Origin: Fusobacterium varium
Lineage (GTDB): Bacteria > Fusobacteriota > Fusobacteriia > Fusobacteriales > Fusobacteriaceae
Assembly: GCA_900637705.1 (NCBI GenBank)
Contig: LR134390.1
Span: forward strand, 2,480,001-2,544,000
DNA length: 64,000 nt
Direction: 5' to 3'
Shown: one piece after another, positions 7,362-53,322 of the stretch
Numbering within the stretch: position 1 is the first letter of the stretch
How the letters are laid out: each line of letters begins with the position of its first letter
The notes under the pieces: model-generated
What the model was told of the DNA's origin: nothing
Database searches by the model: none
What the model saw: only the letters and a program-made list of their open reading frames with translations
Made by a program: the position numbers and the translations under genes

Positions 7362-8450
7362 CTAATCTAAAAAGTTTTCATTAAAATAAGCAAGCAACGA
7401 TTTCATAACTTTTTCTGTTCCACCTACTGTATATAAATCTATTCCTGCTACCCCTTTTCTACACTTATACTCTAAACTTACTATCATCTGTTCATGATAA
7501 TTCTGTGCCAATGAAAATTTTGAAAATGCTATATTTCTATCAGGATTATAATATACAACTTTCAATTTTTCTACATATGGAGAACATTTTAATGAATTAA
7601 CTATATTTTCTAATTCATCTGTTACTTTTATACTTCCTTCCATTTCTTTATCTGATGGTGAATGTTTGCTTGTACTTAAAGGAAGATTGCTTGTTGATGT
7701 CATTCTTTTCATATAGAATTCTCCCATAGCAGAAAACTCAACATAACTTTCTCCATTTTCTTCATCAAATTCTATAAAATTTTTTAAACGAGGATTTTTA
7801 TCAAGAATCTCTTTTATTTCAGATTCCTTAACTTTTTCTTTTCTGTCCAGTAATTTAAAGAACTCTTTATTTTCCAAATAGAAATCATAATCAATTTTCA
7901 TAGGTAGAGGTGATATTTCTGTAACTTCATCAAACTCATCAAACATAAAATATGATTTTAAATGTAAAATTTGTGCCATAAGTCCTACTAAAAATATTTC
8001 AGCCTTATATCCTCCTACAGTACATACACACACATTTAAATTATTTCCTATCTTATTAACTATATTGCTTATCTCTTCTGTAAGTCCTTTAAGTCCAATA
8101 GTTTTAAATTCTTTATGATCCCTTTTATTTAAGCTATGAATAATTCTTTTCTCTACAACTTTTGCTATATTTTTTTTAAGTATAAATTCTTCAAGAACAT
8201 CTCCAGCCAGTTTCCCATTTACAGTATCATGAATCACTAAAAATATCCTTTTCCCAGAAAAAATTTTTTTCTCCATAAGATTTTCAAGAGCTATTATCTC
8301 TGCTCCATACCTTCTATCTCTAAAATCTTCTATATTTTCTTTTTCATAATACCCAAGTATATCTTCTTTAGTTATATTTTCTTTTTTGGGATTATTAGCT
8401 ATATAGTTCTCTACAAGACTGGTACCCACAGTCATAATAATATTGTCCAT
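7362..8450 (-). CDS. Orphan CARF-domain protein (APE2256/TIGR02619-like, Card1/Csx-related)
   Basis: The N-terminal half looks like a CRISPR-associated Rossmann fold that binds cyclic oligoadenylates: IIMTVGTSL near the start (nucleotide loop) and CVCTVGGYKAE around residue 150, then a hydrophobic helix. A winged-helix-like part follows (KESEIKEILDKNPRL, YVEFSAMGEFYM). A C-terminal domain of about 105 residues of unknown identity ends the protein. No cas gene or CRISPR array lies within the window. The frame starts at 8465, but the GGAGG site lies inside it, so the ATG at 8450 is preferred. The CARF call is fairly firm; effector activity is unknown. Confidence 0.75.
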   Translation of the reverse strand: MDNIIMTVGTSLVENYIANNPKKENITKEDILGYYEKENIEDFRDRRYGAEIIALENLMEKKIFSGKRIFLVIHDTVNGKLAGDVLEEFILKKNIAKVVEKRIIHSLNKRDHKEFKTIGLKGLTEEISNIVNKIGNNLNVCVCTVGGYKAEIFLVGLMAQILHLKSYFMFDEFDEVTEISPLPMKIDYDFYLENKEFFKLLDRKEKVKESEIKEILDKNPRLKNFIEFDEENGESYVEFSAMGEFYMKRMTSTSNLPLSTSKHSPSDKEMEGSIKVTDELENIVNSLKCSPYVEKLKVVYYNPDRNIAFSKFSLAQNYHEQMIVSLEYKCRKGVAGIDLYTVGGTEKVMKSLLAYFNENFLD

Positions 8451-8573
8451 TATGAGTTCCTCCATTCTGAATGTTTTTCTATCTAATTTATTACCCTTTT
8501 AGAAGTAATTTGTCAATAGATATACCTATGTTTTTTTAATTTCATGAAATAGTGAACTCTTGTATTTTTTAAT

Positions 8574-11813: not shown

Positions 11814-11842
11814 TTGACTTTTTTACTGAAGTATAGTATTCT
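11814..11842 (+). promoter_or_regulatory. Promoter of pilus operon 1
   Basis: TTGACT (11814-11819) and TATTCT (11837-11842) are 17 bases apart, about 40 bases before the first c-di-GMP riboswitch. The -10 is weaker than in the two cassette promoters. Confidence 0.6.
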
Positions 11843-11879
11843 TAAGTATAAAATACGTATAAAAAAATGATTCAAAGAT

Positions 11880-11953
11880 ATTTTACGGCAAAGTAATGGA
11901 AACATTATGACGCAAAGCTATAGGGCCTGTTAAATGGTAGCCAGTTGCAATTA
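11880..11953 (+). ncRNA. Cyclic-di-GMP-I (GEMM) riboswitch 1
   Basis: The conserved GEMM-I core is present: GGCAAAG, a short P2 hairpin (TAATGGAAACATTA), GACGCAAAGCTATAGGGCC and GGTAGCCAGTTGC. The adenine that stacks between the ligand bases lies in the CGCAAAGC segment. It precedes the long pilus operon and is nearly identical to copies at 21642 and 23347. The 3' GTTGCAATT is also the 5' arm of the following terminator, so aptamer and terminator probably exclude each other. Confidence 0.93.
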
Positions 11954-12004
11954 TAAATAAGGTAGAGAAATAAATTATCTACTTTTTTATAGTTGCATTT
12001 TTTT
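11945..12004 (+). terminator. Riboswitch 1 expression-platform terminator
   Basis: TGCAATTATA (from 11946) pairs with TATAGTTGCA (11988-11997), with an inner GTAGA/TCTAC hairpin, followed by seven T. It starts inside the aptamer's 3' end. Ligand binding would be expected to prevent it (an ON switch), which is an inference. Confidence 0.75.
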
Positions 12005-12049
12005 ATCTAAATTTTAATTTAATCACTTATATATTTTGGAGGAAAATTT

Positions 12050-12577
12050 ATGAAAAAAATATTAATTCCCTTAGGAATATTTATTTTTTCTCTTACCACT
12101 CTTGGAGTAGCTGACAATGAAGCAATAATAGATATCAGTGCTGAATTTTTAGCCCCTATTACCATCGAAACCACAGAAGCAAGTTTTGGAACTATAGTAG
12201 CAGAAACTGGTATAGAGCCAACTACTAATTCAGGGAGAGGCAATGCTAAAAATGGAACCCTATCAATTACAGGAAATGGAAAAGTTTTTATAAGTTGGAA
12301 AGACAAAAATTCTGGAAAAGACTTTGAACTTTCTCAAGATGATCTTGAAGTTATCTTAAAAAAAGATGGAGATACCTCAGGGAATCCTCCAAAATTAATT
12401 TCAAAGTTTAAAGTTAGTGATAATGCTAAACTTCATATTTTCTCTATCCTTGCTACTAAAAATAAACAAACTCTTCAAATTATAGGAACATTAACAGATG
12501 TGAATGATAAAACTGCAAGTGGAACTTATAGTGGTGCTATAACCTTTAGAATCACTTATGATGAACCAACTAATTAA
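12050..12577 (+). CDS. Pilin subunit 1 (DUF4402/spore-coat-U-like major pilin)
   Basis: This 175-residue exported protein has a signal peptide (MKKILIPLGIFIFSLTTLGVA). The mature part begins with the alternating pattern IDISAEFLAPITIETTEASF and ends with ASGTYSGAITFRITYD, the C-terminal beta-strand motif of DUF4402/archaic chaperone-usher pilins. It has no cysteines. An AGGAGG-type site (TTTGGAGGAAAATTT) precedes the ATG. It is the first gene after riboswitch 1. Related pilins at 21812 and 23518 share the same ending. Confidence 0.8.
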   Translation: MKKILIPLGIFIFSLTTLGVADNEAIIDISAEFLAPITIETTEASFGTIVAETGIEPTTNSGRGNAKNGTLSITGNGKVFISWKDKNSGKDFELSQDDLEVILKKDGDTSGNPPKLISKFKVSDNAKLHIFSILATKNKQTLQIIGTLTDVNDKTASGTYSGAITFRITYDEPTN

Positions 12578-12655
12578 TAAATTACAAGATATTACTTTAA
12601 ACTTTTTATCAATTATTATTTTAAATAAATCAAATATTATAAAACGGTGGTGCTA

Positions 12656-14770
12656 ATGAAAAAATTTATTTCAATTTTCTTTATAGTCATAACTTCTTTT
12701 ATTTTTGCAAAAGAACCATTGACTGTAAAGATTCCTATTAATCTTACTGATATGTACTTATATAAAAATTTAGAAACTGGAAAATATGAAGGTGTTTATG
12801 CTGAAGTATTTGAAAAAATTAATAATGAAAAATTAAATTCTGCCTATATTTTAAATTATAAGTTAGAAAATAAAAACCCTGAAATTATGATTAGAGTTGT
12901 AGATTCTTATGAAGATAAACATTATAATTATATTCCTACATCTATCACATATAAAGTATCAATTTTAGTAAAAAACAATAGCAAGATTAGAAAAGCTAGT
13001 GATCTTAATGGATTAAAAATAGCTTATATTCCTAATTCACGTGGATTAAAAGAATTTGAAGAAAGATTTTCAAATATAAAATTTGAAAAAGTCATTGTTC
13101 CTAATGAAGATAAAGGATTAGAAGCACTTGAAACTGGAGAAACAGATGCTTTTATTGTGATAGACTGGTCTGAAAGCAATTCTGTTGAAAGTCATATTAG
13201 AATAATAGAATCTCTTCAATACAAAGAACAGATTGCAGTAAGAGAAGATAAACCTGAATTGTACAATTCTATCAAAACTTATATAACTTCTCTATCAGCT
13301 TCTAACTTTAATAATATTACAAAAAGAAATAGAATAAATTATTATACATATCTTTTAAAGGATACTCCCAATCAAGAAATTGTAAAAAATAAATTTAAAG
13401 AAATAAAAGTGCAGCTTCCTGATATGAAATATGTACTCCCTATTTTTTATGAAAAAAATGGAAAATATAAGGGACTTCTTCCTGACATATTGAAAGATTT
13501 AGAAACTATCATTGGTGTTCCTTTTAAAATGACTAAAAGTGATGGAGATATAAATGCTTATATTATAAAGAATCAGAAAAAAATGGAAAAATATATTTTT
13601 AGTAGCCCATATTACTCTAGTGAGATTGCCATAGCAAATAAAAAACTTGATTCTTATGGAGCAAGTATCAGTGATTTAGACAACAAAAAAATACTTATTG
13701 TTCAAAATAGTTATTTTTCTGAATATCTCCCATCTGTAGTCAAAAATATCACTATAATTCCTACCAAATCAGTTCAAGAGGGACTTAAAAAATTAGCTGC
13801 TGGTGAAGGGGATTATTTTGTTGGATTTGCAAGTGTTATCAGAGGTGCTATAACTAATGAATTTTTAGATGATGAAGTTAAAATAGCTGGAACTATAAAT
13901 GAAAATATGGCTATCAGCCTTGGAGTAAAAAGCAATGAAGAAGAACTAAGCCAGCTTGTTAATACTGTAATGAGAAGTTTTACAGTTGATAAAACTCTGT
14001 CTGATCCTGAGGCTAATAAAAATATTCTTGTAGAGAAAAATTATAAACTTATGATGAAAGTAGCTATTCCAACTATTATCTTTATAATTATATTAATTAT
14101 AGTTCTTATAAAATCCGAAAAAAATAGAAAAAAAGCTGAAATTCTAGGTAATGCTCTAGTTGAAACATTGGAAATGATAAATCAATTAGACCAAGAAGAA
14201 GCTGGAGATCATGCAAAAAGATTATCTATGTACTCTGAACTACTTGCTGATAAATATGGTTTGGATAAAAAAGTAGTGTCTGAAATCAAAAAATTTGCTA
14301 TTCTTCATGACTTAGGTAAAGTTATTGTTCCTAATGAAATTTTAAATAAACCTGGAAAATTAACTGCTGAAGAATTTAATAAAGTAAAAGAACATGCTGT
14401 TGTAGGGCATAAACTTGCTGAAAAATTAGGATTAGGAAGTGTCGCTGAAAATCTTATTAAATTCCATCATGAAAAATGGAATGGTTCTGGATATCCATTA
14501 GGATTAAAAGGAAATGAAATTCCAATAGAGGGAAGAATTGTATCTCTAGCTGATACTTATGATACATTAAGACAAGATAAAGCTTACAGAGCTGGATTTA
14601 CACATGAAGAAGCTGTAAAAATTATAACTAAAGAAAGTAATATCAGTTTTGAACCTGAATTGGTAAATCTTTTTCTGGAAAATAGCGAACTATTCAAAAA
14701 AATCTATGAAGAAAATACAAAATCTATATACCTTGCTGATGAAATATACTCAGCTATAAAAAATAAATAA
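12656..14770 (+). CDS. HD-GYP cyclic-di-GMP phosphodiesterase with periplasmic SBP_bac_3-like sensor domains
   Basis: A signal peptide is followed by two extracytoplasmic regions (about residues 25-240 and 250-455) that resemble family 3 solute-binding proteins. A membrane helix comes next (AIPTIIFIIILIIVLI, about 465-485), then a cytoplasmic HD-GYP domain with ILHDLGK (about residue 550), KEHAVVGHKLAEKLG, FHHEKWNGSGYP and LADTYDTLR. All metal-binding His/Asp motifs and the GYP are intact. HD-GYP proteins break down c-di-GMP to pGpG/GMP. It sits in an operon controlled by a c-di-GMP riboswitch, so a feedback loop is likely. The frame opens at a GTG at 12647, but ATG 12656 fits the GGTGG site better. 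Confidence 0.88.
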   Translation: MKKFISIFFIVITSFIFAKEPLTVKIPINLTDMYLYKNLETGKYEGVYAEVFEKINNEKLNSAYILNYKLENKNPEIMIRVVDSYEDKHYNYIPTSITYKVSILVKNNSKIRKASDLNGLKIAYIPNSRGLKEFEERFSNIKFEKVIVPNEDKGLEALETGETDAFIVIDWSESNSVESHIRIIESLQYKEQIAVREDKPELYNSIKTYITSLSASNFNNITKRNRINYYTYLLKDTPNQEIVKNKFKEIKVQLPDMKYVLPIFYEKNGKYKGLLPDILKDLETIIGVPFKMTKSDGDINAYIIKNQKKMEKYIFSSPYYSSEIAIANKKLDSYGASISDLDNKKILIVQNSYFSEYLPSVVKNITIIPTKSVQEGLKKLAAGEGDYFVGFASVIRGAITNEFLDDEVKIAGTINENMAISLGVKSNEEELSQLVNTVMRSFTVDKTLSDPEANKNILVEKNYKLMMKVAIPTIIFIIILIIVLIKSEKNRKKAEILGNALVETLEMINQLDQEEAGDHAKRLSMYSELLADKYGLDKKVVSEIKKFAILHDLGKVIVPNEILNKPGKLTAEEFNKVKEHAVVGHKLAEKLGLGSVAENLIKFHHEKWNGSGYPLGLKGNEIPIEGRIVSLADTYDTLRQDKAYRAGFTHEEAVKIITKESNISFEPELVNLFLENSELFKKIYEENTKSIYLADEIYSAIKNK

Positions 14771-14790
14771 ATACTGCAGAGGTGAATTTT

Positions 14791-16233
14791 TTGAGAAAAT
14801 ACTTATTGATGCTGATATTTAATTTTTCTTTAATATTTAGCTTTAGCAGTACTACTAATGAGGTAGAAAATATTTTTGCTGATGAATTTGGATATCAAAA
14901 TATAAAAATTAGTGAAATACCTGAAACTTTAAATATTCTTCAAGGATTAAGAGTTTCAACAATTGATCCTGCAATGATAAAAGATAATTACTCTAAAAGA
15001 GCTATTCCTTTACTATATGATACTCTTTTTGTCTTTGATGAAAATAAAGTAATAAAACCTAATTTAGTAAAAGACTATAAATGGTTAAATGAAAAAGAAC
15101 TATTTATAGAATTAAAAAATGATATAAAATTTCATGACAAAAGTATGCTTACTGCAAAAGATGTTAAAGATTCATTAAAATATCTAAAAGAATATGGAAC
15201 ATTAAAAAACTTTTACTCTGAGATAACAGATATAAAAGTTTTAAATACAAGAGAATTAATAATAAAAATTGCTGAAAAAGACAGTCTTTTTTTAATTTCG
15301 CTAACCTATGAAGTCAGTTCCATAGTTAAAAGAAATGAAAATGGAATAATTGGTTCTGGTCCTTTTGTTATCAAAAGCTTCAATGGAAAAACCTTGAAAT
15401 TAGAAAGATTTCCTGACTATTTCAATGGAATTTCTAACATAAAAAAAGTAAATATTGGAGAAGAAGTAAATGAAAGCCAAAGACTTATAGCTTTATTTAA
15501 TGATAAAGCAAATATTGCTTTAGATGTAACAGAAAAATCTTTAAATAATGCAAAAGAATATGGAATAATTGATGAAAATTTATTTATTGAAAAAAATGAT
15601 GAAACAGAAAGTACAGTACTTATGTTTGGAAATCAAAAAGATTACTCTTTAGAATGCAGAAAAGCGATTGAAAGTGCTATTCAGAGAACAGCTGATTCTT
15701 TTTTTCCTAAAGAAATGTTCACTCCAAGACTTTCTAAAATAAACATTGATTATAGTACTTCAAAAGCCAAAGAAAATATAAACAAAGCTGGATTAAAAAA
15801 TAAAGAAGTCAATATTATGGTGCTTAATACAAATAATAGTATGGAACAGGCAGAAAAAATAAAAGTTGCTCTTGAAAAAGCTGGAATGAAAGTAAATCTT
15901 ATGCCTCACCAAATAGATTCATACTATATTAAATTCCAAAATAAAGATTTTGATCTTGCTATTTTTAATGTTACATTCAACAGTAATTATACTGTATTTA
16001 ATTTAGGAAAAGTTCTTCTTTATGACATTGGAGATATGGAAATGTACAATGCTTTACAACCATTTCTTAAAATAATAAAAGAAGAAAAAGATAAAGAGAA
16101 AAGGGATCAAGTATTTGATAAAATAGTTCAACTTATCTATAATGATCTTCCATATATCCCAATTTCTCATGGTAAAACTCTCATAATTGGAGCTGAAAAA
16201 TATAAATATATAAAAGTAAGGGGAGGGGATTAA
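14791..16233 (+). CDS. Extracellular solute-binding protein family 5 (OppA/DppA-like), no lipobox
   Basis: This protein of about 480 residues has a signal peptide and the SBP_bac_5 pattern (LYDTLFVFDENKVIKPNLVKDY, ELKNDIKFHDKSMLTAKDVKDSL, GSGPFVIKSF, LERFPDYFNG). Such proteins bind peptides or other ligands for ABC importers. No permease or ATPase gene lies nearby and no lipobox Cys is present, so it may feed a sensor such as the neighbouring HD-GYP protein rather than a transporter. The frame opens with GTG at 14782, but this is part of the GAGGTG site. TTG at 14791 is the preferred start. Confidence 0.75.
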   Translation: MRKYLLMLIFNFSLIFSFSSTTNEVENIFADEFGYQNIKISEIPETLNILQGLRVSTIDPAMIKDNYSKRAIPLLYDTLFVFDENKVIKPNLVKDYKWLNEKELFIELKNDIKFHDKSMLTAKDVKDSLKYLKEYGTLKNFYSEITDIKVLNTRELIIKIAEKDSLFLISLTYEVSSIVKRNENGIIGSGPFVIKSFNGKTLKLERFPDYFNGISNIKKVNIGEEVNESQRLIALFNDKANIALDVTEKSLNNAKEYGIIDENLFIEKNDETESTVLMFGNQKDYSLECRKAIESAIQRTADSFFPKEMFTPRLSKINIDYSTSKAKENINKAGLKNKEVNIMVLNTNNSMEQAEKIKVALEKAGMKVNLMPHQIDSYYIKFQNKDFDLAIFNVTFNSNYTVFNLGKVLLYDIGDMEMYNALQPFLKIIKEEKDKEKRDQVFDKIVQLIYNDLPYIPISHGKTLIIGAEKYKYIKVRGGD

Positions 16234-16273
16234 AATATATAAAAGAGTAAAAATAATTGTAGTACTCACCTTT

Positions 16274-17125
16274 ATGATATTTTCCTTTTCTTATTCAGAT
16301 AATACTACATTTGATGTTTCAGCAAGAGGAATATATACAAAGGAAGAAATTATTTTAGGAGTAACAGGAAGAATTGATTTTGAAATTAGTGAAGTTACAA
16401 TAAGAGCTAAGAATAATACTAATTATACTTATTTTGAAGTTGCAAATACAGAAATAGGAAATGAAAATTTTATCAAGGGGCAAAACTTAAAAATAGTAAA
16501 TATTAACAAAGGTATTGGAAATGAAAAACATATTTATTTTAAAGATAATGAAGGTAATTCAATTGATACTATTAAATTTTCTTTAAAAGGTACTCTCCTT
16601 TTTAATTGGAATAAAACTAATAAAAACCCTAGTCTAATTATTGGTTATAGAGGCGAAGAAAATAATACTAGAATAGCCTCTAGTGCTAATAACTATATAA
16701 CTGTTAATCTTAGTGACATAAAACCAATATCTTTACTAAAAATAAATGTCAAGAAAGACCTGTATCTTGGAAAAGGAATAGCTGGTACTAGCCTTGATAC
16801 TTCTAAAGGCAGTGGTTATCCTGCAGAAATTGAAACTACTGGAGAATATGGTAAAAATGTAAAATTTGAAATTCTAAATCCTGAAAATATAAAAATTGTC
16901 AATGCTAATAATTCTCAAGACTCATTAAAAGTTGATGTTTGGTTTGAAGGCTCTACTGGAAATAGTACAACTATAAAAAGAAATTTAAATGAAAAATCTA
17001 CTAATGAAACTACTTATACAGGGAAAATATCTAACATCAAAATTCATGGTAAATGTGAGTCAAATGTAAATAGCCATGGAAAATATAAAGGAAATTTTAG
17101 AGTAAGAGTGGAGTATGATGATTAA
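16274..17125 (+). CDS. Candidate two-domain tip adhesin / minor pilin
   Basis: The protein has two pilin-like halves. The first begins NTTFDVSARGIY. The second starts near SLLKINVKKDLYLGKG and ends with SHGKYKGNFRVRVEYD, the same C-terminal strand motif as the major pilins. Two-domain subunits placed next to the usher are typically tip adhesins. With ATG 16274 the signal peptide is too short. The frame is open upstream to about 16229 and would encode KIYKRVKIIVVLTFMIFSFS, a good signal peptide, but it has no ATG, GTG or TTG. An ATA at 16235 lies 8 bases after GGAGG and is a candidate start. The stop overlaps the usher start. Confidence 0.62.
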   Translation: MIFSFSYSDNTTFDVSARGIYTKEEIILGVTGRIDFEISEVTIRAKNNTNYTYFEVANTEIGNENFIKGQNLKIVNINKGIGNEKHIYFKDNEGNSIDTIKFSLKGTLLFNWNKTNKNPSLIIGYRGEENNTRIASSANNYITVNLSDIKPISLLKINVKKDLYLGKGIAGTSLDTSKGSGYPAEIETTGEYGKNVKFEILNPENIKIVNANNSQDSLKVDVWFEGSTGNSTTIKRNLNEKSTNETTYTGKISNIKIHGKCESNVNSHGKYKGNFRVRVEYDD

Positions 17126-19736
17126 AAAGAGAAAGCTTCTGCCTTTCTTAATATTTTCAATGCTTATTTCTACACCTCTTTATTCAATAGAAGGTTATGA
17201 AAATTTTGAAGATTCATATATACAGATAAGTGCCAAAAAAATCAAAGATGATTTTTTTATGGTAAAATATGATTACGATAATGAAGAAGTTTACATAGGA
17301 ATGAATGCTTTATTCTATTTTATGGAACTTTATGGACTTGAAGTAAATATTGGAAAAAAATCTATATCTGGAAAACTTGAGGGAAAAAATTTAAATGTTT
17401 CTTTTTCAGATGATGAAGCTTATGTCTTAGATGAAGAACTATTTGTTAATTCAAAAGCCTTAGAAAGAAAAATGAATTTTTCCTCAATAAAATATGACTT
17501 TTCATCTTTAAGATTAACTTTAGACCCAAATTTTATTCTTCCATATGAAGAAAGAGAAAAAGGAAAAGTAGAAAGATTGAGGCTAGACAGCAGAAAAGAA
17601 GAAGAAAAAAAAATTGATATTGAAGTGCCTAGGAAGTTTATAACTCCTGGATTATTAAAATTAGATTATTCTCAATCTGATATAAAAAAACCAGAGAATC
17701 ATCTTTCATATGAGTATGCTTCACAATTTCTGTACGGAGAATTATACCTATCAGGTGGTATAAGACCTGAATCAGAACTTACCTATGGTAATCTTACTTA
17801 TTCAGATATTGTAGGAGATAATGATCTTATATTGGGAAATTTCTCTCTTATAGCACCTAGTTTTTTAAATATAGATGGTAATATTCTAGGAGTAAGTTTC
17901 AATAATGAAGAAACATATGTAACAAAAGATGGAGCTATTACTGTTATCAAAGGAGAAGCATTTGATGCTGACATAATTGAATTATATAGAAATGGAATGC
18001 TTTTGAGCTATATATCTCCTCATACAAAAGATTTTGAATTTAGAATAGATGATGGCATACTTAGTTCTGATTATACATTAAAAATCTATTACAAAAATGG
18101 TGGAATAGAAGAAAGAACTGTATATTCTCTATCTGATTCTGAATTATTAAAAAAAGGAAGATATCGATTTTCAGCTCAAAGTGGTAAAAATGCTGATAAT
18201 GGTGATCCACAAAGCATTATAAAAACTTTTTATGGAGTAGCTGACAATTTTACTATTGGAGTAAGTGGAAGTAACCTTACAAGTACTTCTGGAAGAAAGT
18301 ACAAATTTTTAGAAAATACTTTCTTATTAAGTACAGGGTTTCACAATTTTCCAACTTTAATTAACTATAAAAATTTTTATGAAATAGAAAAGAAAGAAAA
18401 CAGCTATAATCTATCTGTGGAGCAAAAATTATTTACATATAATTTAAAATTCACTGAAAATAAATATTCCCCATATGTCTATGAAGATACAAATCTAAAA
18501 AAATATAATTCAATATCTATAGGTAAAAATTTTAATAGAAATTCTTTTGAATTTGGTCTTAATAGATATGTTTATTATAATACCAACATAGAAAGTAAAA
18601 ACATATACAGTACATGGTATTCTTCACTTTTTAATCCTGTATCATTCTCTTTAAGAATGGAAAAAGAATTAACAAAAGATAATGAAGGAATATCTTTTTA
18701 TCCCTCTTTTGCTTATTCTGGATTTCAAAGCTTAAATATGATGTTAGATGGAGAAATAAGTAAGAAAAGAACTGATGATGAGTATAAGCAGAAATATTCT
18801 CTTAGAATAAATAAAAGAAACATGGAATTAATAAAAGATACTCTGTTTGTTGATTTTGGTGTAGAGGCAAAATATTCCAATGAAACAGAAAAATTTAGAT
18901 ATGGTATCACTTTCACTATAGAATTAGATGATTTTATTTACCTTGAAGCTCCTACCAATGTTGTGATAGATGAAAATAATAATCGTAAAACAACTACAGG
19001 TCTTCATGCTAGCAAAATCATTGATCTTAGCAATCCTATTAGAAAAATTAAAAATAATGTTTCCATCACTGGAGCTTGGATACATGGCAAGGTATTTCTT
19101 GATAAAAATGGAAATGGCATATTTGATGAAGGAGATATTCCAATCCCAGAAGCTGGTGTTATGGTAAACAATAAAACTTTCCTAGCTGATGAAGATGGAA
19201 ATTATGTAGCTGAAGGAGTTGCTACCAACGAAATTATAGATCTTACAATTAACAGAAAAACTATTGACCCTATGATGAAAAATTCTAAGGGCGCTTTAAA
19301 AATAAAAACAAGAAAATCTTCTGGACTTAAAGTTGATATCCCTATTGAAGTCGTTTCAATGGTTACAGGAAATATCTGGAATACATCTGAATTTACAGAA
19401 AGGCAATTTATACAAGCTGTATCTATGACTACTATAGTCCTTGAAAAAGATGGACAAGTTCAATATGAAATTGATCCTGAATTTGATGGAATGTTCTTCT
19501 TTGAAGATATACCACCAGGACAATATAAAATGAAGTTCATATATCTTGGTCAGGAAAATTTTGGTTTCACTACTCCTGAACTAGATGTTGATGTTACTCT
19601 TGCAGATACAGAAACTGGAGAGTATTTTGAAGGTTATGATACTCAACTAATGAGAAAAGTTGATGAAGAAACAACTCAAGAAACAACAACTGATATGAAT
19701 GAAGATGAAATAGATAACATCTTAAATAATTACTAA
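17115..19736 (+). CDS. Outer-membrane usher for pilus assembly, with SdrD B-like domain
   Basis: This 873-residue exported protein has an N-terminal domain (about 30-150), a long beta-barrel region rich in alternating aromatic strands, and a plug-like E-set segment (DIIELYRNGMLLSYISP around residue 290). YGVADNFTIGVSGS is usher-like. Around residues 655-705 GKVFLDKNGNGIFDEGD marks an SdrD B/carboxypeptidase-regulatory type beta-sandwich, and a C-terminal domain follows. Layout is closest to CS1/archaic ushers. It is the only usher in the window and lies between the tip adhesin and the MORN protein. The usher call rests on domain pattern and neighbours. Confidence 0.75.
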   Translation: MMIKKRKLLPFLIFSMLISTPLYSIEGYENFEDSYIQISAKKIKDDFFMVKYDYDNEEVYIGMNALFYFMELYGLEVNIGKKSISGKLEGKNLNVSFSDDEAYVLDEELFVNSKALERKMNFSSIKYDFSSLRLTLDPNFILPYEEREKGKVERLRLDSRKEEEKKIDIEVPRKFITPGLLKLDYSQSDIKKPENHLSYEYASQFLYGELYLSGGIRPESELTYGNLTYSDIVGDNDLILGNFSLIAPSFLNIDGNILGVSFNNEETYVTKDGAITVIKGEAFDADIIELYRNGMLLSYISPHTKDFEFRIDDGILSSDYTLKIYYKNGGIEERTVYSLSDSELLKKGRYRFSAQSGKNADNGDPQSIIKTFYGVADNFTIGVSGSNLTSTSGRKYKFLENTFLLSTGFHNFPTLINYKNFYEIEKKENSYNLSVEQKLFTYNLKFTENKYSPYVYEDTNLKKYNSISIGKNFNRNSFEFGLNRYVYYNTNIESKNIYSTWYSSLFNPVSFSLRMEKELTKDNEGISFYPSFAYSGFQSLNMMLDGEISKKRTDDEYKQKYSLRINKRNMELIKDTLFVDFGVEAKYSNETEKFRYGITFTIELDDFIYLEAPTNVVIDENNNRKTTTGLHASKIIDLSNPIRKIKNNVSITGAWIHGKVFLDKNGNGIFDEGDIPIPEAGVMVNNKTFLADEDGNYVAEGVATNEIIDLTINRKTIDPMMKNSKGALKIKTRKSSGLKVDIPIEVVSMVTGNIWNTSEFTERQFIQAVSMTTIVLEKDGQVQYEIDPEFDGMFFFEDIPPGQYKMKFIYLGQENFGFTTPELDVDVTLADTETGEYFEGYDTQLMRKVDEETTQETTTDMNEDEIDNILNNY

Positions 19737-19759
19737 AAAATCAAAGGAGAAGGGTTATT

Positions 19760-20671
19760 TTGAAAAAATCAAAACTATTAATGATAATTATGATTTTATG
19801 TTTTAGTATATTCGGACTCTCATACTCTGATAATAAGAGAGTAGAGAAAATCGAAAATAAACAGATAAAAAATAATATTGTCTATTTCAAAAATGAATCT
19901 GTCCCTTTTACTGGTGAATTCAGAGGTACTGGTATCAATGAAGAATATAAATCAGGTATAAAAGATGGATTTTTCAAAGGCGTTATTTCAGATGAAGGAA
20001 AAAGCTTCATCTATGAGGGAAGATATGTAGAGGGAATAAAACATGGTCAGTGGGTTATTAAATATCTTACTGGAAGTAACAGAGCTATTCTTAGATATAA
20101 TTATGATAAACCACATGGTCAATGGGCATATTTTTATGAAAATAATAAAATAGAAAGTTATGAAAATTTTGAAGATGGAATTCTTTCAGGAAAAGTAGTA
20201 AATTACGATTCAAAAGGAAATGTAAAAACACAAGTAACATATAAAAGTGGACTGCTAGATGGAGAAGCTGTTTTCTTCCATAGTCCTGGGGTATTAGATA
20301 CTACAGCTATTTTCTCATATGGAAAACTTAATGGTCCCTTAAAAATGTTTTCTGCTGATAATATTCCTCTTGTAGAAGGAACTTATAAAAATAATAAAAG
20401 AGAAAATATTTGGAAATTTTTCTATAAAACTGGTGATATAAAAACAACTGTTACATATAAAAATGGATTAAAGAATGGTAAGGTCACAATTTATGATAAA
20501 GGTGGGGGAATTGTTCTGACATCTTTATTTGAAAATGGAGATGAAATTGATAATAATGGAAATATAATTGAAAAAAATCAGCCATTCAAAGATGGAATTG
20601 TAGAAAGATTTAAAAAATTCAATAGAAATCTAAAATTTGAAAAATATGACAAATTATTATCAGAACTTTAA
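19760..20671 (+). CDS. Exported MORN-repeat protein (YwqK-like)
   Basis: The protein starts with TTG after AAGGAGAAGGG and has a signal peptide (MKKSKLLMIIMILCFSIFG). The body is built of MORN_2-type repeats, recognisable as KHGQWVIKY, PHGQWAYFYENNKIE, LSGKVVNYDSKGNVK and KNGKVTIYDKGG. Such proteins are often labelled YwqK antitoxin-like, but no toxin partner is present here. Its place between usher and chaperone suggests a structural or anchoring part of the pilus machinery, which is inference. Confidence 0.7.
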   Translation: MKKSKLLMIIMILCFSIFGLSYSDNKRVEKIENKQIKNNIVYFKNESVPFTGEFRGTGINEEYKSGIKDGFFKGVISDEGKSFIYEGRYVEGIKHGQWVIKYLTGSNRAILRYNYDKPHGQWAYFYENNKIESYENFEDGILSGKVVNYDSKGNVKTQVTYKSGLLDGEAVFFHSPGVLDTTAIFSYGKLNGPLKMFSADNIPLVEGTYKNNKRENIWKFFYKTGDIKTTVTYKNGLKNGKVTIYDKGGGIVLTSLFENGDEIDNNGNIIEKNQPFKDGIVERFKKFNRNLKFEKYDKLLSEL

Positions 20672-20686
20672 TCTAGAGGTGATTTA

Positions 20687-21427
20687 GTGAAAAAAATATT
20701 TGCATTTTTAATGACTTTTATTATTGGAATAAATTTGTATGCTCTTAATTTTTCTGTAGCTCCTACAAGCTTCAAAGTTGAATTAAAAAAAACTGTAACA
20801 CAGGAAGTTTATATTATCAATAATACTTCTGCTCCTTTAAGAATAGAAACATACTTAGAGGCTGCTGAATCTTTTGAAAATTTTAATTTAAATGATAATA
20901 TCACTGTTTTTCCTAAAATGATATCTATCAAACCTGGAGCTAAACAAACTATAAGATTTAGAGTAAAGCCAAATACAGAAATGGCTGATGGTGAATACAA
21001 AAGTTTATTAATATTTAAAGAAGTTCCCAAGGAAATAAAAACTACAATTGTTAGTGATGAAAATAATAAGGGCTTATCTACAGAACTTACTTTTATAACA
21101 GAAGTAGCAATAGGTGTATCTGGTATCAAAGGAACCCCTATTATTGATGGTACAATACAAAATACAAAAGTAGCTTATTCTGGCAAGCTTATTTCACTCC
21201 AATGTGATACTATTTCAAAAGGAAACACCCCTATGAGAATAGACTATATATTAGAGAGTGAAGATGGTAACCTTATTTCTAAAGGTCGTCTTGGAACAAG
21301 TGCAAGAACTGGCGAAAAAAGACTTTCTACAAATATAGAAATTCCTGAACTAAAAGGAAAAAAAATAAATCTTATATTAAAAGACCAAAACAAAAAAGTT
21401 ATTTATAGTAGAATATATTCTCTATAA
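20687..21427 (+). CDS. Periplasmic pilus chaperone 1 (PapD-like)
   Basis: This 246-residue exported protein starts with GTG (site GAGGTGATTTA). It has the immunoglobulin-like chaperone pattern: LNFSVAPTSFKVEL, QEVYIINNTSAPLRIE, PGAKQTIRFRVKP and DGEYKSLLIFKEVP. The basic residues in QTIRFRVKP fit the subunit-binding strand. It closes operon 1 and is paralogous to the chaperones at 22467 and 24101. Confidence 0.82.
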   Translation: MKKIFAFLMTFIIGINLYALNFSVAPTSFKVELKKTVTQEVYIINNTSAPLRIETYLEAAESFENFNLNDNITVFPKMISIKPGAKQTIRFRVKPNTEMADGEYKSLLIFKEVPKEIKTTIVSDENNKGLSTELTFITEVAIGVSGIKGTPIIDGTIQNTKVAYSGKLISLQCDTISKGNTPMRIDYILESEDGNLISKGRLGTSARTGEKRLSTNIEIPELKGKKINLILKDQNKKVIYSRIYSL

Positions 21428-21440
21428 TAGCAGTCAACCA

Positions 21441-21470
21441 AAGAAGGAGTTTATTTCTCCTTCTTTTTAT
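21441..21470 (+). terminator. Terminator of pilus operon 1
   Basis: AAGAAGGAG (21441-21449) pairs with CTCCTTCTT (21458-21466), followed by a T-rich tail. Confidence 0.85.
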
Positions 21471-21578
21471 TTTTATGTTCTATTTTATATCTCTGACTTT
21501 TTTAATACACTTTTTCACTTAGGTTTATAAAACACCTTTTAATCGTTGTTTTTTTGAATATTTTCGAAAATTATTTCA

Positions 21579-21607
21579 TTGACATACGAAAATTAATAGT
21601 GTATAAT
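21579..21607 (+). promoter_or_regulatory. Consensus promoter of pilin cassette 2
   Basis: TTGACA (21579-21584) and TATAAT (21602-21607) are separated by 17 bases: a perfect sigma-70 consensus just upstream of riboswitch 2. Confidence 0.85.
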
Positions 21608-21635
21608 TATATTACATAAGAAAAGTATATTTTAA

Positions 21636-21710
21636 TTTCTTGGCAAAGTAATGGAAACATTATGACGCAAAGCTATAGGGCCTTTTAAATGGCAGCCAGT
21701 TGCAATTATT
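21636..21710 (+). ncRNA. Cyclic-di-GMP-I (GEMM) riboswitch 2
   Basis: It has the same core as riboswitch 1: GGCAAAG (21642), GACGCAAAGCTATAGGGCC and GGCAGCCAGTTGC. The P3 side reads CCTTTTAAATGG instead of CCTGTTAAATGG. It controls pilin 2. Confidence 0.93.
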
Positions 21711-21762
21711 ATTAAAAAGTATGATTGTCTAATCATGAGTTTTAATAATAATTGCATTTTTA
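21701..21762 (+). terminator. Riboswitch 2 expression-platform terminator
   Basis: Perfect 17-base arms TGCAATTATTATTAAAA (21701-21717) and its complement (21740-21756) enclose ATGATT/AATCAT and are followed by TTTTTAG. The 5' arm begins within the aptamer's last conserved bases. Confidence 0.85.
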
Positions 21763-21811
21763 GTATACAGGGGAATAAATAAAATATTAAAAATTTTAGG
21801 AGGGAAAGACT

Positions 21812-22378
21812 ATGAAAAAATTATTATTATTAGCTGGATTATTGGTTGTAACTGGATCAGCTTTTGCTGCAGATATTAAAACAGAAGCAAGTGGAAATGT
21901 TGATATTTATGCTCAGGTTCTTACTAATTTGGAAATTGATTCAAAACCTTTAAATTTTGGTGTTCTTGGAATAAATGACAGTAAAACTATAGGAGCAAAT
22001 GATGGTGGTGCTGGTAGTTTTACTATTACAGGAGCAACAAATACAAATATTACTTTAACAATAGCAGATACTGGAGATACAAGTAAGACATTTGTTAATG
22101 GAGAAGTTATAGCTAAATTAGTAAGAGAAGGTGGAAATAGTGCCACTGGTAATGATATATTAACTCCAAAAATATATGTATATGATAATGGTGATAAAAT
22201 AACTAATACAACTTTTAATATTGCTTCTAAAAACCGACTACATGTAGCACAATCAAAAGAATTTAAAGTTGCAGGAGATATTGAAACTAGACCCGAACAA
22301 AATACTGGTAATTATAAGGGTACTATAAAAGTAACTGCTAAATATGATTCTTGGCCTGCTACTACTCCTACTAAATAA
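21812..22378 (+). CDS. Pilin subunit 2
   Basis: This 188-residue exported pilin has signal peptide MKKLLLLAGLLVVTGSAFA and a mature start like DIKTEASGNVDIYAQVLTNL. Its central Gly/Thr-rich beta strands lead to the final NTGNYKGTIKVTAKYD motif shared with the other pilins. It has no cysteines. A strong AGGAGG site precedes the ATG, and the gene is first after riboswitch 2 and a consensus promoter, so it is probably a major subunit made in quantity. Confidence 0.82.
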   Translation: MKKLLLLAGLLVVTGSAFAADIKTEASGNVDIYAQVLTNLEIDSKPLNFGVLGINDSKTIGANDGGAGSFTITGATNTNITLTIADTGDTSKTFVNGEVIAKLVREGGNSATGNDILTPKIYVYDNGDKITNTTFNIASKNRLHVAQSKEFKVAGDIETRPEQNTGNYKGTIKVTAKYDSWPATTPTK

Positions 22379-22413
22379 CTAGTTCTATAAATCAATAATA
22401 AGTTTCAATGAAA

Positions 22414-22441
22414 CAGCAGCAAATAAATGCTGCTGTTTTTT
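22414..22441 (+). terminator. Intercistronic terminator between pilin 2 and chaperone 2
   Basis: CAGCAGC and GCTGCTG arms with an 8-base loop are followed by six T. It lies between two genes of one cassette, so partial termination would give more pilin than chaperone. Confidence 0.8.
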
Positions 22442-22466
22442 AACTAAATTCTTTGGAGGAACATAC

Positions 22467-23216
22467 ATGAAAAAACTATCTTTTTTTATCATTTTATTGG
22501 TACTTTCTACAGCTTCTTATTCTCTTAATTTTTCTGTTATGCCTACAGGATTTGTAGTAGATTTAGATAAGGTTTCTACTCAAGAAGTATACATCACTAA
22601 TAACACTTCTGCCCCACTTAGATTGGAAGCATATTTTCAAAGTGATTCTGATTTTGGAGAAAATTTTAATCTTAATTCTAATTCTGTAATATTTCCTAAA
22701 ATAATAGCTATTAAACCAGCAGCTAAACAGACTATAAGATTTAGAACAAAACCTGATGCTAATATGAAAGATGGAGAATATAAAAGTTATCTCACTTTTA
22801 AAGAAATTCCTCAAGAAATAAAAACTATTCCTGGCGAAGATAGTAGTAATAAAACTGCAATGTCAACTAATTTACAAATGATTACTGAAATTAGTATTAG
22901 TGTATTTGGACAGAGAGGAAAACAAGTATCAAAAGGAACTTTAAATAATTTAAAATTAAATTATAATGGTAGCTCAATATTTATTACTGCCAATGCTTTA
23001 TCAGAAGGAAATGCTTCTATAAAATTCTACTATAATTTAAAAGTTTTAAATTCTGATGTTGAGTTAGAAGGAATGCTTGGAATGTCTGCCAGAGAGGGAA
23101 AAAAAGATATAAATATATCAATTGACCCTGAAATAAATTTAAAAGGAAAAAAAATAAAATTTACAGTAATAGACCAAGATGGAAAAATATATTATGATAA
23201 AAACCATAACTTGTAA
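22467..23216 (+). CDS. Periplasmic pilus chaperone 2 (PapD-like)
   Basis: This 249-residue exported chaperone has LNFSVMPTGFVVDLDK, QEVYITNNTSAPLRLEAYF, PAAKQTIRFRTKPD and KDGEYKSYLTFKEIP. It is closer to chaperone 3 than to chaperone 1 (for example shared SDSDFGENFNLNSN-type and REGKKDI stretches). It is paired with pilin 2 and has no usher of its own. Confidence 0.82.
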   Translation: MKKLSFFIILLVLSTASYSLNFSVMPTGFVVDLDKVSTQEVYITNNTSAPLRLEAYFQSDSDFGENFNLNSNSVIFPKIIAIKPAAKQTIRFRTKPDANMKDGEYKSYLTFKEIPQEIKTIPGEDSSNKTAMSTNLQMITEISISVFGQRGKQVSKGTLNNLKLNYNGSSIFITANALSEGNASIKFYYNLKVLNSDVELEGMLGMSAREGKKDINISIDPEINLKGKKIKFTVIDQDGKIYYDKNHNL

Positions 23217-23291
23217 TAAATAATTTAAAATATTTAATTTCTTTTTATTCTATATAATATCTTTAATTCTTGCTTTTACACATTTTTTATA

Positions 23292-23320
23292 TTGACATAT
23301 GTTAATTACTAATATATAAT
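23292..23320 (+). promoter_or_regulatory. Consensus promoter of pilin cassette 3
   Basis: TTGACA (23292-23297) and TATAAT (23315-23320) are 17 bases apart, directly upstream of riboswitch 3. Confidence 0.85.
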
Positions 23321-23340
23321 ATATTAAAGAAGTTATGTTA

Positions 23341-23414
23341 AAATTCGGCAAAGTAATGGAAACATTATGACGCAAAGCTATAGGGCCTGTAAAATGGTAG
23401 CCAGTTGCAATTAT
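23341..23414 (+). ncRNA. Cyclic-di-GMP-I (GEMM) riboswitch 3
   Basis: The core GGCAAAG (23347), GACGCAAAGCTATAGGGCC and GGTAGCCAGTTGC is identical to riboswitch 1 over the conserved part, except CCTGTAAAATGG in the P3 loop. It controls pilin 3. Confidence 0.93.
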
Positions 23415-23465
23415 TATTAAAATATAAGGATAAGCCTATATTTTTAATAGTAGTTGCTTTTTTTA
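23407..23465 (+). terminator. Riboswitch 3 expression-platform terminator
   Basis: Arms beginning GCAATTATTATTAAAATATA (23407-23426) and ending near 23457 in TAGTAGTTGC pair with few mismatches and are followed by a run of T. Confidence 0.8.
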
Positions 23466-23517: not shown

Positions 23518-24033
23518 ATGAAAAAATTATTATTGCTAAGTAGCATATTAGCAATATCTACAACTATTTTTGGTGCTGGAATGTCTAGTAGTGATGATTT
23601 AAAAGTTACAGCTCAAATTATCAAGCCACTTAGTATAACTACAAAAGAAGTTAATTTTGGTATAATTACTGTTGGTCAAAAAAATATTTCAACAGAAGGT
23701 ACATCTGGAGATGGTAAAATTGAAGTTAATGGTGAAGCAAATAGCAATGTTAGATTTCAGCTTGATGGTCTTAGTTCTTCTATCATATTAAAAACTAATG
23801 ATAGTGCTAATACTTTAAGTGCAAATTTAAAAGGAGTTAATTCTTCTTCTTCTTCTGAATCTAGTACTAATTTAGCTGAGCTTTTTGACAGACAACATGC
23901 TTTAAATGAAAATGGTTCTATAGCCTTTATTATTCATGGAACAATACCAGATGTTCCTGAAGGCACAGCTTCTGGATTATATACAGGAACAGTTAAAATT
24001 ACAGCTAAATATGATTTTAATTCTAACAAATAA
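23518..24033 (+). CDS. Pilin subunit 3
   Basis: This 171-residue exported pilin has signal peptide MKKLLLLSSILAISTTIFGA. The mature part has SSDDLKVTAQIIKPLSITTK and a serine-rich stretch, and ends with ASGLYTGTVKITAKYD, the family's terminal strand. A GGAGGAATATAT site precedes the ATG. It is paired with chaperone 3. Confidence 0.82.
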   Translation: MKKLLLLSSILAISTTIFGAGMSSSDDLKVTAQIIKPLSITTKEVNFGIITVGQKNISTEGTSGDGKIEVNGEANSNVRFQLDGLSSSIILKTNDSANTLSANLKGVNSSSSSESSTNLAELFDRQHALNENGSIAFIIHGTIPDVPEGTASGLYTGTVKITAKYDFNSNK

Positions 24034-24045
24034 AGTGTTAAAGTA

Positions 24046-24075
24046 AAAAACAGTAGCAATATTGCTACTGTTTTT
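24046..24075 (+). terminator. Intercistronic terminator between pilin 3 and chaperone 3
   Basis: A perfect palindrome AAAAACAGTAGCAAT/ATTGCTACTGTTTTT lies between the pilin stop and the chaperone start. Like the one in cassette 2 it could set the pilin to chaperone ratio. Confidence 0.82.
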
Positions 24076-24100
24076 CAACTTAAATCAATGGAGGACTTTT

Positions 24101-24844
24101 ATGAAAAAATTTCTTTTTATCATATTATTATTGAGTTTTTCAGTGTTATCATATTCTCTTAATTTCTCTGTAGCTCCTACAGGATTTTCTGTAGAATTGG
24201 ATAAAACTTCTACACAAGAAATAACTATTATAAATAATACTGCTGAACCATTGAGATTAGCAGCATCTTTTCAAAGTGATTCTGAATTTGGAGAAAAATA
24301 TAATCTCAATTCTAACCTTACTATTTTTCCAAAGATAATATCTTTAAAACCAGCAGGAAAGCAAATAGTAAGATTCAGAGTAAAACCTGATTCATCTATA
24401 AAAGATGGAGAATATAAAAGTTTACTCACACTTACTGAATTACCTGGAGAAATAAAAACTATTCCTAATGAAAATAATTCACAAACTGTATCCTCTACTT
24501 TAAAAATGGTTACAGAAATTAATGTTGCAGTTTATGGATATAAAGGAAGTCTTATACATAAAGGAATATTATCTGATGTAAAATTAAACTACAATGGAAA
24601 TTCTGCACTTATTACAGCTTCTTCATTTTCAGAGGGAAATACCTCTTTAAAATTTTCATATAGCTTAAAAGTTCAGAATTCCGATGCTGAAACATCTGGC
24701 TTACTTGGAGTATCTGCTAGAGAAGGTAAAAAAGACATACGTCTATCAACTCAATTAGGTAGTAATTTAAAGGGAAAAAAAGTAAAATTAGTAATTACTG
24801 ATCAAAATGGAAAAGTATACTATGACAAAATTCATACTTTATAA
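24101..24844 (+). CDS. Periplasmic pilus chaperone 3 (PapD-like)
   Basis: The start is ATG 24101, preceded by ATGGAGGACTTTT; an upstream ATG at 24062 lies in the terminator hairpin and would spoil the signal peptide MKKFLFIILLLSFSVLS. Chaperone motifs are LNFSVAPTGFSVELDK, QEITIINNTAEPLRL, PAGKQIVRFRVKPD and KDGEYKSLLTLTELP. Its end overlaps the convergent glycosylase gene by 13 bases. Confidence 0.83.
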   Translation: MKKFLFIILLLSFSVLSYSLNFSVAPTGFSVELDKTSTQEITIINNTAEPLRLAASFQSDSEFGEKYNLNSNLTIFPKIISLKPAGKQIVRFRVKPDSSIKDGEYKSLLTLTELPGEIKTIPNENNSQTVSSTLKMVTEINVAVYGYKGSLIHKGILSDVKLNYNGNSALITASSFSEGNTSLKFSYSLKVQNSDAETSGLLGVSAREGKKDIRLSTQLGSNLKGKKVKLVITDQNGKVYYDKIHTL

Positions 24845-25493
24845 TTTAATATAAAACAAAAAGAAGCTGCTATTTTTAGCTTCTTTTTATTTAACTCAAT
24901 TTTTTTAGATACATATATACTATTTGTTATATAAAATCTCCAAGGTTTTAGTGCATCTTCTTCTGCATAATCTATTCCTATTCTTGTTGTTTCAGTTATT
25001 TTCTCAGGAATATAACCATCACTCTCTATCCAGATATTTTTCTTCTTTGTTAAATCATCACCATTATCTTCTTTAGTTATCCCTAATGCCTTAGTTAATT
25101 TACCAGGTCCATTAGATATATCTTTTTCTTTTTTTACTTTTCTTTCAATCAACATTAATTCTTTATTATCGAGTGGTTCCACCCCTCTTATAAGAACAGC
25201 TTGAGGATTATTTTTTACAGATGCTGTCACATTAAAACAATTATACATACCATATATTAAAAATACATAGGAATATCCCCTTCTTTATACATAACTTCTG
25301 TTCTTTCGGTTCGCCTATTATTATATGAATGACTTGCTTTATCCTCTGCTCCCATATATGCTTCTACCTCTGTTATTCTTCCTTTAAAAAGATTTTTACC
25401 TCTTTTTTTAACCAATATTTTACCTAAAAGCTCTTTAGCTACTGTTACAGCATCTCTTGTGTAAAACTCTCTATTTAATATCATATATTTCAC
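24832..25493 (-). pseudogene. DNA-3-methyladenine glycosylase (AAG/Mpg type), frameshifted
   Basis: Two frames make one protein. The first (25493-25257) has [34 protein letters not shown] and NNRRTEVMY-type residues. The second has IYGMYNCFNVTASV, GPGKLTKALGIT and TTRIGIDYAEEDALKPWRFY. A single missing base between about 25266 and 25280 (a run of four G or two C on the coding strand side) separates them; repaired length is about 220 residues. The enzyme excises alkylated purines. The last 20 or so residues come from reading through the shared terminator and are unusual for the family. Confidence 0.85.
24859..24892. terminator. Terminator between chaperone 3 and the convergent glycosylase gene
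   Basis: AAAAGAAGCT (24859-24868) and AGCTTCTTTT (24878-24887) form the stem with T tails on both strands. It lies within the extended C-terminal codons of the glycosylase gene. Confidence 0.78.
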
Positions 25494-53210: not shown

Positions 53211-53255
53211 AAAAAAAACTGATGTCCTGCATTAAAAATATGCAGAAGTCATCAG
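53211..53255 (-). terminator. Expression-platform terminator of the fluoride riboswitch
   Basis: On the minus strand CTGATGACTTCTGCAT (53240-53255) pairs with ATGCAGGACATCAG (53219-53232) and is followed by seven to eight T. Its 5' arm is the conserved GCTGATGACTTC end of the aptamer, so ligand binding should prevent termination. Confidence 0.88.
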
Positions 53256-53305
53256 CTTATAAGCGGTTTTTGTGTTGTCACAAAGGGAGAACCTCATTCC
53301 CAAAG
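53238..53305 (-). ncRNA. Fluoride (crcB-type) riboswitch
   Basis: The minus strand reads GGGAATGAGGTTCTCCC, a short TTTGTG/CACAAA hairpin, AAACCGC, TTATAAGC and GCTGATGACTTCTGC. This follows the crcB consensus closely (compare the Thermotoga petrophila aptamer GATGAGG...GCTGATGGCCTCTAC). It precedes the antiporter gene, a known target class of fluoride riboswitches. Confidence 0.9.
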
Positions 53306-53322
53306 TATTAAATTTTCAATTT

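Follow-up and report, generated by a model that had tools for sequence, protein, structure and literature searches.

Three c-di-GMP-I riboswitches precede pilin genes of a chaperone-usher pilus locus in Fusobacterium varium and are predicted to act as transcriptional ON switches

The 64,000-nucleotide stretch of the Fusobacterium varium genome analyzed here (contig LR134390.1, positions 2,480,001 to 2,544,000), referred to as the window, contains a chaperone-usher pilus locus in which three pilin-like genes are each preceded by a similar RNA element. This arrangement raised the question of whether the pilus could be controlled by cyclic di-GMP (c-di-GMP) and, if so, in which direction. Sequence comparison and structure prediction indicated that the three elements are GEMM-I riboswitches, which probably act as transcriptional ON switches for this one locus and would be coupled to feedback by a phosphodiesterase encoded in the first operon. 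The elements of the three leaders were as follows.

11814..11842, + strand: promoter-like site of operon 1 (TTGACT-17-TATTCT, 9/12)
11877..11952, + strand: c-di-GMP-I aptamer of riboswitch 1 (RS1), RF01051 56.7 bits, E 2e-8, G20
11946..12004, + strand: intrinsic terminator of RS1, -18.8 kcal/mol, then U7; the UGCAAUU 5' strand is common to the aptamer
21579..21607, + strand: consensus promoter of cassette 2 (TTGACA-17-TATAAT, 12/12)
21632..21707, + strand: c-di-GMP-I aptamer of RS2, RF01051 58.6 bits, G20
21701..21761, + strand: intrinsic terminator of RS2, -21.8 kcal/mol, then U5; 5' strand common to the aptamer
23292..23320, + strand: consensus promoter of cassette 3 (TTGACA-17-TATAAT, 12/12)
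23337..23412, + strand: c-di-GMP-I aptamer of RS3, RF01051 56.8 bits, G20
23407..23464, + strand: intrinsic terminator of RS3, -17.2 kcal/mol, then U7; 5' strand common to the aptamer

A cmscan search against Rfam 15 matched RF01051 (c-di-GMP-I, GEMM-I) three times in the window, always on the plus strand, over the full length of the model (positions 1-87) and above the gathering score of 35 bits. This confirmed the family assignment of an initial annotation, as well as its three sites; the exact starts that it gave (11,880, 21,636 and 23,341) did not hold, since the aptamers begin a few bases earlier. The three copies were the only GEMM-I matches in the whole single-contig genome of 3,302,398 bases, and a genome-wide search that had no positive control found no c-di-GMP-II riboswitches. 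The aptamers were near-identical, as had been claimed, with 57-59 of 60 bases shared in the cores. Only 23-28 of the 60 preceding bases were shared, so that the copies resemble one another in the aptamer alone. The P2 tetraloop (GNRA) was GAAA in the window copies and in 135 of the 138 copies from the family Fusobacteriaceae, and the P2 stem contained standard pairs in 814/828 cells of the 138-aptamer alignment, with several pair types and covariation. GGCAAAG and GUUGC were present in all three window copies, placing a G and a C at what we take to be positions 20 and 92 in the numbering of Vc2.

The direction of switching was addressed through the terminators. Each aptamer has the 3' end GTTGCAATT, in which UGC(AAUU) forms the 5' strand of a terminator hairpin of -17 to -22 kcal/mol followed immediately by U5-U7, so that one intrinsic terminator per copy, as annotated, was present at all three sites. 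Folding of the unliganded RNAs from the predicted start placed the junction G and C in the terminator at every site (P 0.97-1.0), and the UGC of RS1 paired at P 0.59-1.0 without ligand; holding the junction G and C (and G20) free cost 4.2-7.5 kcal/mol across RS1-RS3. Among the 21 aptamers of the genus, 16-18 had an aptamer-overlapping terminator, against 0.4 expected with shuffled downstream DNA; the count was 16 by a strict rule, with 3 more borderline and the other 2 recovered by a looser rule. Across the family, 71/138 aptamers had such a terminator against 2.0 expected from the shuffled control. This overlap is the geometry of a transcriptional ON switch, and it suggests that ligand binding would turn transcription on.

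In the mechanism that we propose, the junction strand UGC(AAUU) of the nascent RNA would join the terminator when c-di-GMP is absent, and transcription would halt ahead of the pilin gene. When c-di-GMP is bound, the junction bases, including the equivalent of C92, would be held in the ligand pocket, the base of the terminator would be blocked, and the polymerase would read through. Operon 1, from its weaker promoter, would then yield the assembly machinery and a phosphodiesterase with a periplasmic sensor, and cassettes 2 and 3, from perfect promoters, would each yield a pilin and its own chaperone. The genes concerned, with the edge of the locus, were as follows.

12050..12577, + strand: pilin-like subunit A, first gene of operon 1 (Pfam DUF4402 E 0.004, below cut-off; aligns with the other pilins)
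12647..14770, + strand: SBP_bac_3 sensor fused to an HD-GYP phosphodiesterase (HD_5 E 2.4e-31)
14782..16233, + strand: peptide-type periplasmic binding protein (SBP_bac_5, Pfam E 1.5e-29)
16274..17125, + strand: larger pilin-like subunit (Pfam DUF4402 E 0.0017, below cut-off)
17115..19736, + strand: divergent outer-membrane usher, 873 amino acids (fold match and profile match)
19760..20671, + strand: MORN-repeat protein kept in the locus at a conserved position (Pfam MORN_2 E 8.8e-11)
20687..21427, + strand: PapD-like chaperone A (Pfam PapD_N above cut-off)
21440..21475, + strand: intrinsic terminator ending operon 1 (10-pair stem, then TTATTTTTAT)
21812..22378, + strand: pilin subunit B (DUF4402, Pfam E 1.4e-7, above cut-off)
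22467..23216, + strand: PapD-like chaperone B (Pfam PapD_N 31.4 bits, above cut-off)
23518..24033, + strand: pilin subunit C (DUF4402, Pfam E 8.1e-7, above cut-off)
24062..24844, + strand: PapD-like chaperone C (62% identical to chaperone B)
24844..24858, no strand: junction without a cyclase gene (collinear blocks abut at 24843/24859, where the relatives G025 and G026 carry a gene of ~1.8 kb for a PAS-GGDEF diguanylate cyclase)

A pilin-like gene follows each riboswitch, as had been annotated, and RS2 and RS3 each precede one DUF4402 pilin and one chaperone. DUF4402 scored above cut-off for two window pilins, PapD_N for two chaperones of the locus, and SCPU matched 3 of the 11 aligned pilins of the genus. 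The larger pilin-like subunit is a candidate tip subunit. The 873-amino-acid protein had no match to the Pfam usher model, and a search with this single sequence against named genomes found nothing; sequence searches of the PDB with usher, chaperone and pilin profiles detected no meaningful relative. An AlphaFold2 model built from a 21-sequence alignment (mean predicted local distance difference test score, 77.6) was compared with the PDB by Foldseek, and the 18 best matches were all FimD or PapC (best E 6.6e-25). Furthermore, a profile comparison with six ushers of Escherichia coli K-12 aligned 250 columns around the plug domain. Because of this fold match and the agreement in the plug region, the protein was classed as a divergent usher, which together with the PapD_N matches upheld the annotation of a chaperone-usher locus. 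With the usher alignment as query, the named genomes yielded four loci, in Fusobacterium mortiferum and in Cetobacterium metagenome-assembled genomes. A second usher gene of the same genome (G000:C1:2939503-2942043) has no GEMM-I riboswitch, and hence not all chaperone-usher pili of this genome are under such control.

The gene order was then compared with that of relatives. The order riboswitch-pilin-HD-GYP-SBP_bac_5-large subunit-usher-MORN-chaperone, followed by one to three riboswitch-pilin-chaperone units, was kept in genomes G023, G025 and G026; G027 had the same order with two units and a riboswitch ahead of the first only, and G020 and G021 had a variant form. In relatives that share this order, with ushers 48-91% identical, riboswitches were located at the two kinds of site seen in the window. 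Riboswitch-linked pilins were only 20-43% identical to pilin A, while the aptamers were nearly constant. The promoter-riboswitch-pilin-chaperone unit is thus a repeated cassette, present one to three times per locus and kept while the pilins diverge, and it is a new observation of this study. The promoters were also conserved: the operon 1 hexamers scored 9/12 and the cassette 2 promoter 12/12 at the orthologous sites of G025, G026 and G027, so that the pattern of a weaker operon 1 promoter and perfect cassette promoters was retained. Two tiers of this kind would match the expectation of abundant pilin and scarce machinery. Many other GEMM-I sites of the Fusobacteriaceae precede other surface genes (L042-L141), among them genes for very large secreted-looking proteins (~1600 amino acids), tandem pilin genes and SBP-HD-GYP genes.

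The second gene of operon 1 suggested how the response could be limited. Its product is the sole HD_5 protein of the genome and has intact HD-GYP catalytic motifs (LHDLGK ... HHEKWNGSGYPLGLKGNEIP; HD and HHExWNGSGYP); four EAL proteins are encoded elsewhere. Because the only HD-GYP gene, with its motifs intact, lies in operon 1, a high c-di-GMP level should induce its own breakdown. Production of the putative phosphodiesterase only at high c-di-GMP would amount to built-in negative feedback, and the SBP-type sensor region probably gates this feedback by an external solute. When the catalytic motif was required, an HD-GYP gene was found in the downstream run of 22 of the 138 family riboswitches; the automatic census of downstream genes relied on home-made hidden Markov models, and proteins with an SBP domain alone are labeled HD-GYP by it as well.

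The link to c-di-GMP was examined in 61 Fusobacteriaceae genomes, 44 with a GGDEF domain and 17 without. GEMM-I riboswitches were detected in 37/44 genomes with GGDEF and in 0/17 without (p=6e-10), and the difference persisted when the comparison was limited to genomes with an usher (30/32 against 0/8, p=6e-7); these counts were not corrected for phylogeny, and shared descent inflates the statistics. The pattern recurred within at least four genera. Ushers were kept in 8 of the 17 GGDEF-less genomes. Two of the GGDEF-less genomes, G018 and G031, had the locus SBP_bac_5-large subunit-usher-MORN-pilin-chaperone without HD-GYP and without riboswitch, and a third, G022, was alike but additionally lacked SBP_bac_5 and MORN. 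An HD_5 domain above cut-off was found in none of the 17. Of the evidence that riboswitches and phosphodiesterase alike would serve c-di-GMP, this joint absence of cyclases, riboswitches and HD-GYP was the strongest. The inference of switching on also fits, because the GGDEF-less genomes keep the pilus loci but without riboswitch and HD-GYP.

Besides the shared descent behind these counts, several points weighed against ON switching. The P1 closing helix, which is not part of the Rfam consensus structure, was not detectable in the window copies, in the other copies of the genus or in those of the Cetobacterium type, and true 5' and 3' flanks of the same genus paired no better than shuffled partners. 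The annotated overlap of aptamer and terminator therefore stood at all three sites as a common strand but had to be corrected in its position, which is the 3' junction strand, and any competition centers on the ligand-contact junction itself. Folding also indicated that a shortened hairpin could still form with the junction bases held and may leave some termination. Finally, the class I c-di-GMP riboswitches of Clostridioides difficile are OFF switches (PMC11477304), and the RNA class alone cannot give the direction. An OFF switch, in which the ligand stabilizes or permits the terminator and pili are made at low c-di-GMP, would accommodate both the C. difficile precedent and the shortened hairpin. 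Such a switch is nevertheless unlikely here: the minimum-energy folds of the leaders contained no anti-terminator, the ligand-binding junction lies inside the 5' strand of a terminator that the unliganded RNA folds in full, and the loop would lock itself if the phosphodiesterase were expressed when c-di-GMP is low. ON switches are also known among GEMM-I RNAs, as deletion of the cGAMP (cyclic GMP-AMP) cyclase of Geobacter lowers expression downstream of its GEMM-Ib riboswitches (PMC6456294).

The Geobacter precedent raises the question of the ligand, since position 20 sets the preference for c-di-GMP or cGAMP in GEMM-I RNAs (PMC6456294). That the aptamers read 3',3'-cGAMP, or that the locus mixes specificities, gains some credence from an A at the presumed position 20 in 4 of the 21 copies of the genus (G023 C20:32245, G025 C1:863189, and G026 C1:2669408 and 2682585, in L036, L038 and L039), in pilus loci that also contain copies with G. 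All three window copies have a G at this position and thus lack the A20 feature of cGAMP-selective GEMM-Ib RNAs, the Hypr serine occurred in no intact-motif GGDEF protein of the genome and in 0/11 matched in relatives, and the locus encodes an HD-GYP protein, typically a c-di-GMP phosphodiesterase; we consider cGAMP sensing quite improbable. Within-genome near-identity could also reflect recent duplication, with the leaders as decayed or non-functional leftovers of a multiplying pilin cassette. This explanation appears highly improbable given that the upstream sequence is unrelated between copies, that the orthologues in other species have preserved the fold through compensatory substitutions in P2, that terminators are retained with differing sequences, and that no riboswitch occurs where cyclases are lacking.

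If ON switching by c-di-GMP is accepted, the source of the ligand becomes of interest. In G025, G026 and G027 a gene for a GGDEF cyclase comes immediately after the last chaperone gene. It is of the PAS-GGDEF type in G025, the GGDEF domain of the relative's gene matched with E 9.3e-34, and a PAS-GGDEF gene of this position lies at L038:14942-16519. In G023 a different GGDEF protein gene occupies this place. As the edge cyclase is missing in the window, its riboswitches must depend on the general pool of c-di-GMP supplied by other GGDEF proteins. A CHASE-GGDEF gene near the second riboswitch of G020 and G021 encodes the only GGDEF protein of the genome, and in G028 (L041) and G034 (L193) the sole GGDEF gene adjoins two GEMM-I riboswitches, which control other genes, including one for an OmpW-like barrel in G034. 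In G035, the fifth single-GGDEF genome, the GGDEF gene is on another contig than the riboswitches. We tentatively suggest that Fusobacteriaceae pilus loci might be self-contained circuits in which the adjacent cyclase makes c-di-GMP, GEMM-I reads it and HD-GYP erases it; where A20 occurs beside G20, as in some relatives, the cassettes may not all prefer one ligand. If so, in the simplest genomes (the F. mortiferum-like G020 and G021) c-di-GMP would serve essentially one pilus, because the locus cyclase is the sole cyclase.

The RNA family and ON-type c-di-GMP control of pili, in C. difficile pilA1 and Geobacter GEMM-Ib, were already known. The window copies share with RF01051 the aptamer sequence and structure, the 5' leader position and the intrinsic terminator platform; they are set apart by their predicted targets, the genes of a chaperone-usher pilus together with one for an HD-GYP phosphodiesterase. 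The closest likeness in mode of action is the class II riboswitch Cdi-2-4 of C. difficile, upstream of pilA1, where c-di-GMP promotes read-through into the major pilin gene (PMC6366702), but that RNA is of another class, the pili are type IV, there is one riboswitch per pilin operon, and no phosphodiesterase is mentioned for the operon, unlike operon 1 here. The Geobacter GEMM-Ib RNAs use the GEMM-I fold for ON switches, which in part precede genes for pilus assembly and in part are arranged in tandem (PMC6456294); they differ in ligand (cGAMP, A20), in targets (cytochromes, pilMNOP and others) and in being scattered over the genome and not gathered at one locus. With the FimD and PapC pili of E. 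coli and SCPU/DUF4402 pilins, the locus shares the usher fold, PapD-like chaperones and small secreted pilin-like subunits. It differs in an usher below Pfam detection with C-terminal SdrD_B/CarboxypepD_reg-like domains, a chaperone for each cassette pilin, MORN and SBP_bac_5 proteins, and riboswitch control.

Searches of open-access literature found neither a chaperone-usher pilus reported to be under GEMM-I control nor a c-di-GMP riboswitch described from Fusobacterium, and almost no work on c-di-GMP signaling in this genus. The present analysis adds to the initial annotation the repeated cassettes, the phosphodiesterase gene within operon 1, the cyclase gene that relatives have at the edge of the locus and the window lacks, and the distribution of GEMM-I over the 61 genomes. 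The statement in the initial annotation that such a regulon is not described for this group is consistent with that part of the literature, and a chaperone-usher pilus under c-di-GMP riboswitches, with a putative phosphodiesterase feedback built in, appears to be undescribed. Riboswitch control would thereby extend to chaperone-usher pili, and the phosphodiesterase inside the switched operon predicts self-limiting pulses of piliation. Fusobacterium would gain a directly testable c-di-GMP circuit, for which sister species that lack cyclases, riboswitches and phosphodiesterase but have kept the pilus genes are natural controls.

Three further features of the window were recorded. The gene for a methylpurine-DNA glycosylase (24874-25484, - strand) is split over two frames by a frameshift near 25260-25278 and is intact in relatives. 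A fluoride riboswitch (53236-53310, - strand) lies upstream of a gene for a Na+/H+ exchanger-type transporter (52011-53189, - strand). A CARF protein (Cas_APE2256 / CARF_DUF2103), of a type tied to CRISPR type III cyclic oligoadenylate signaling, is encoded at 7362-8465 on the - strand.

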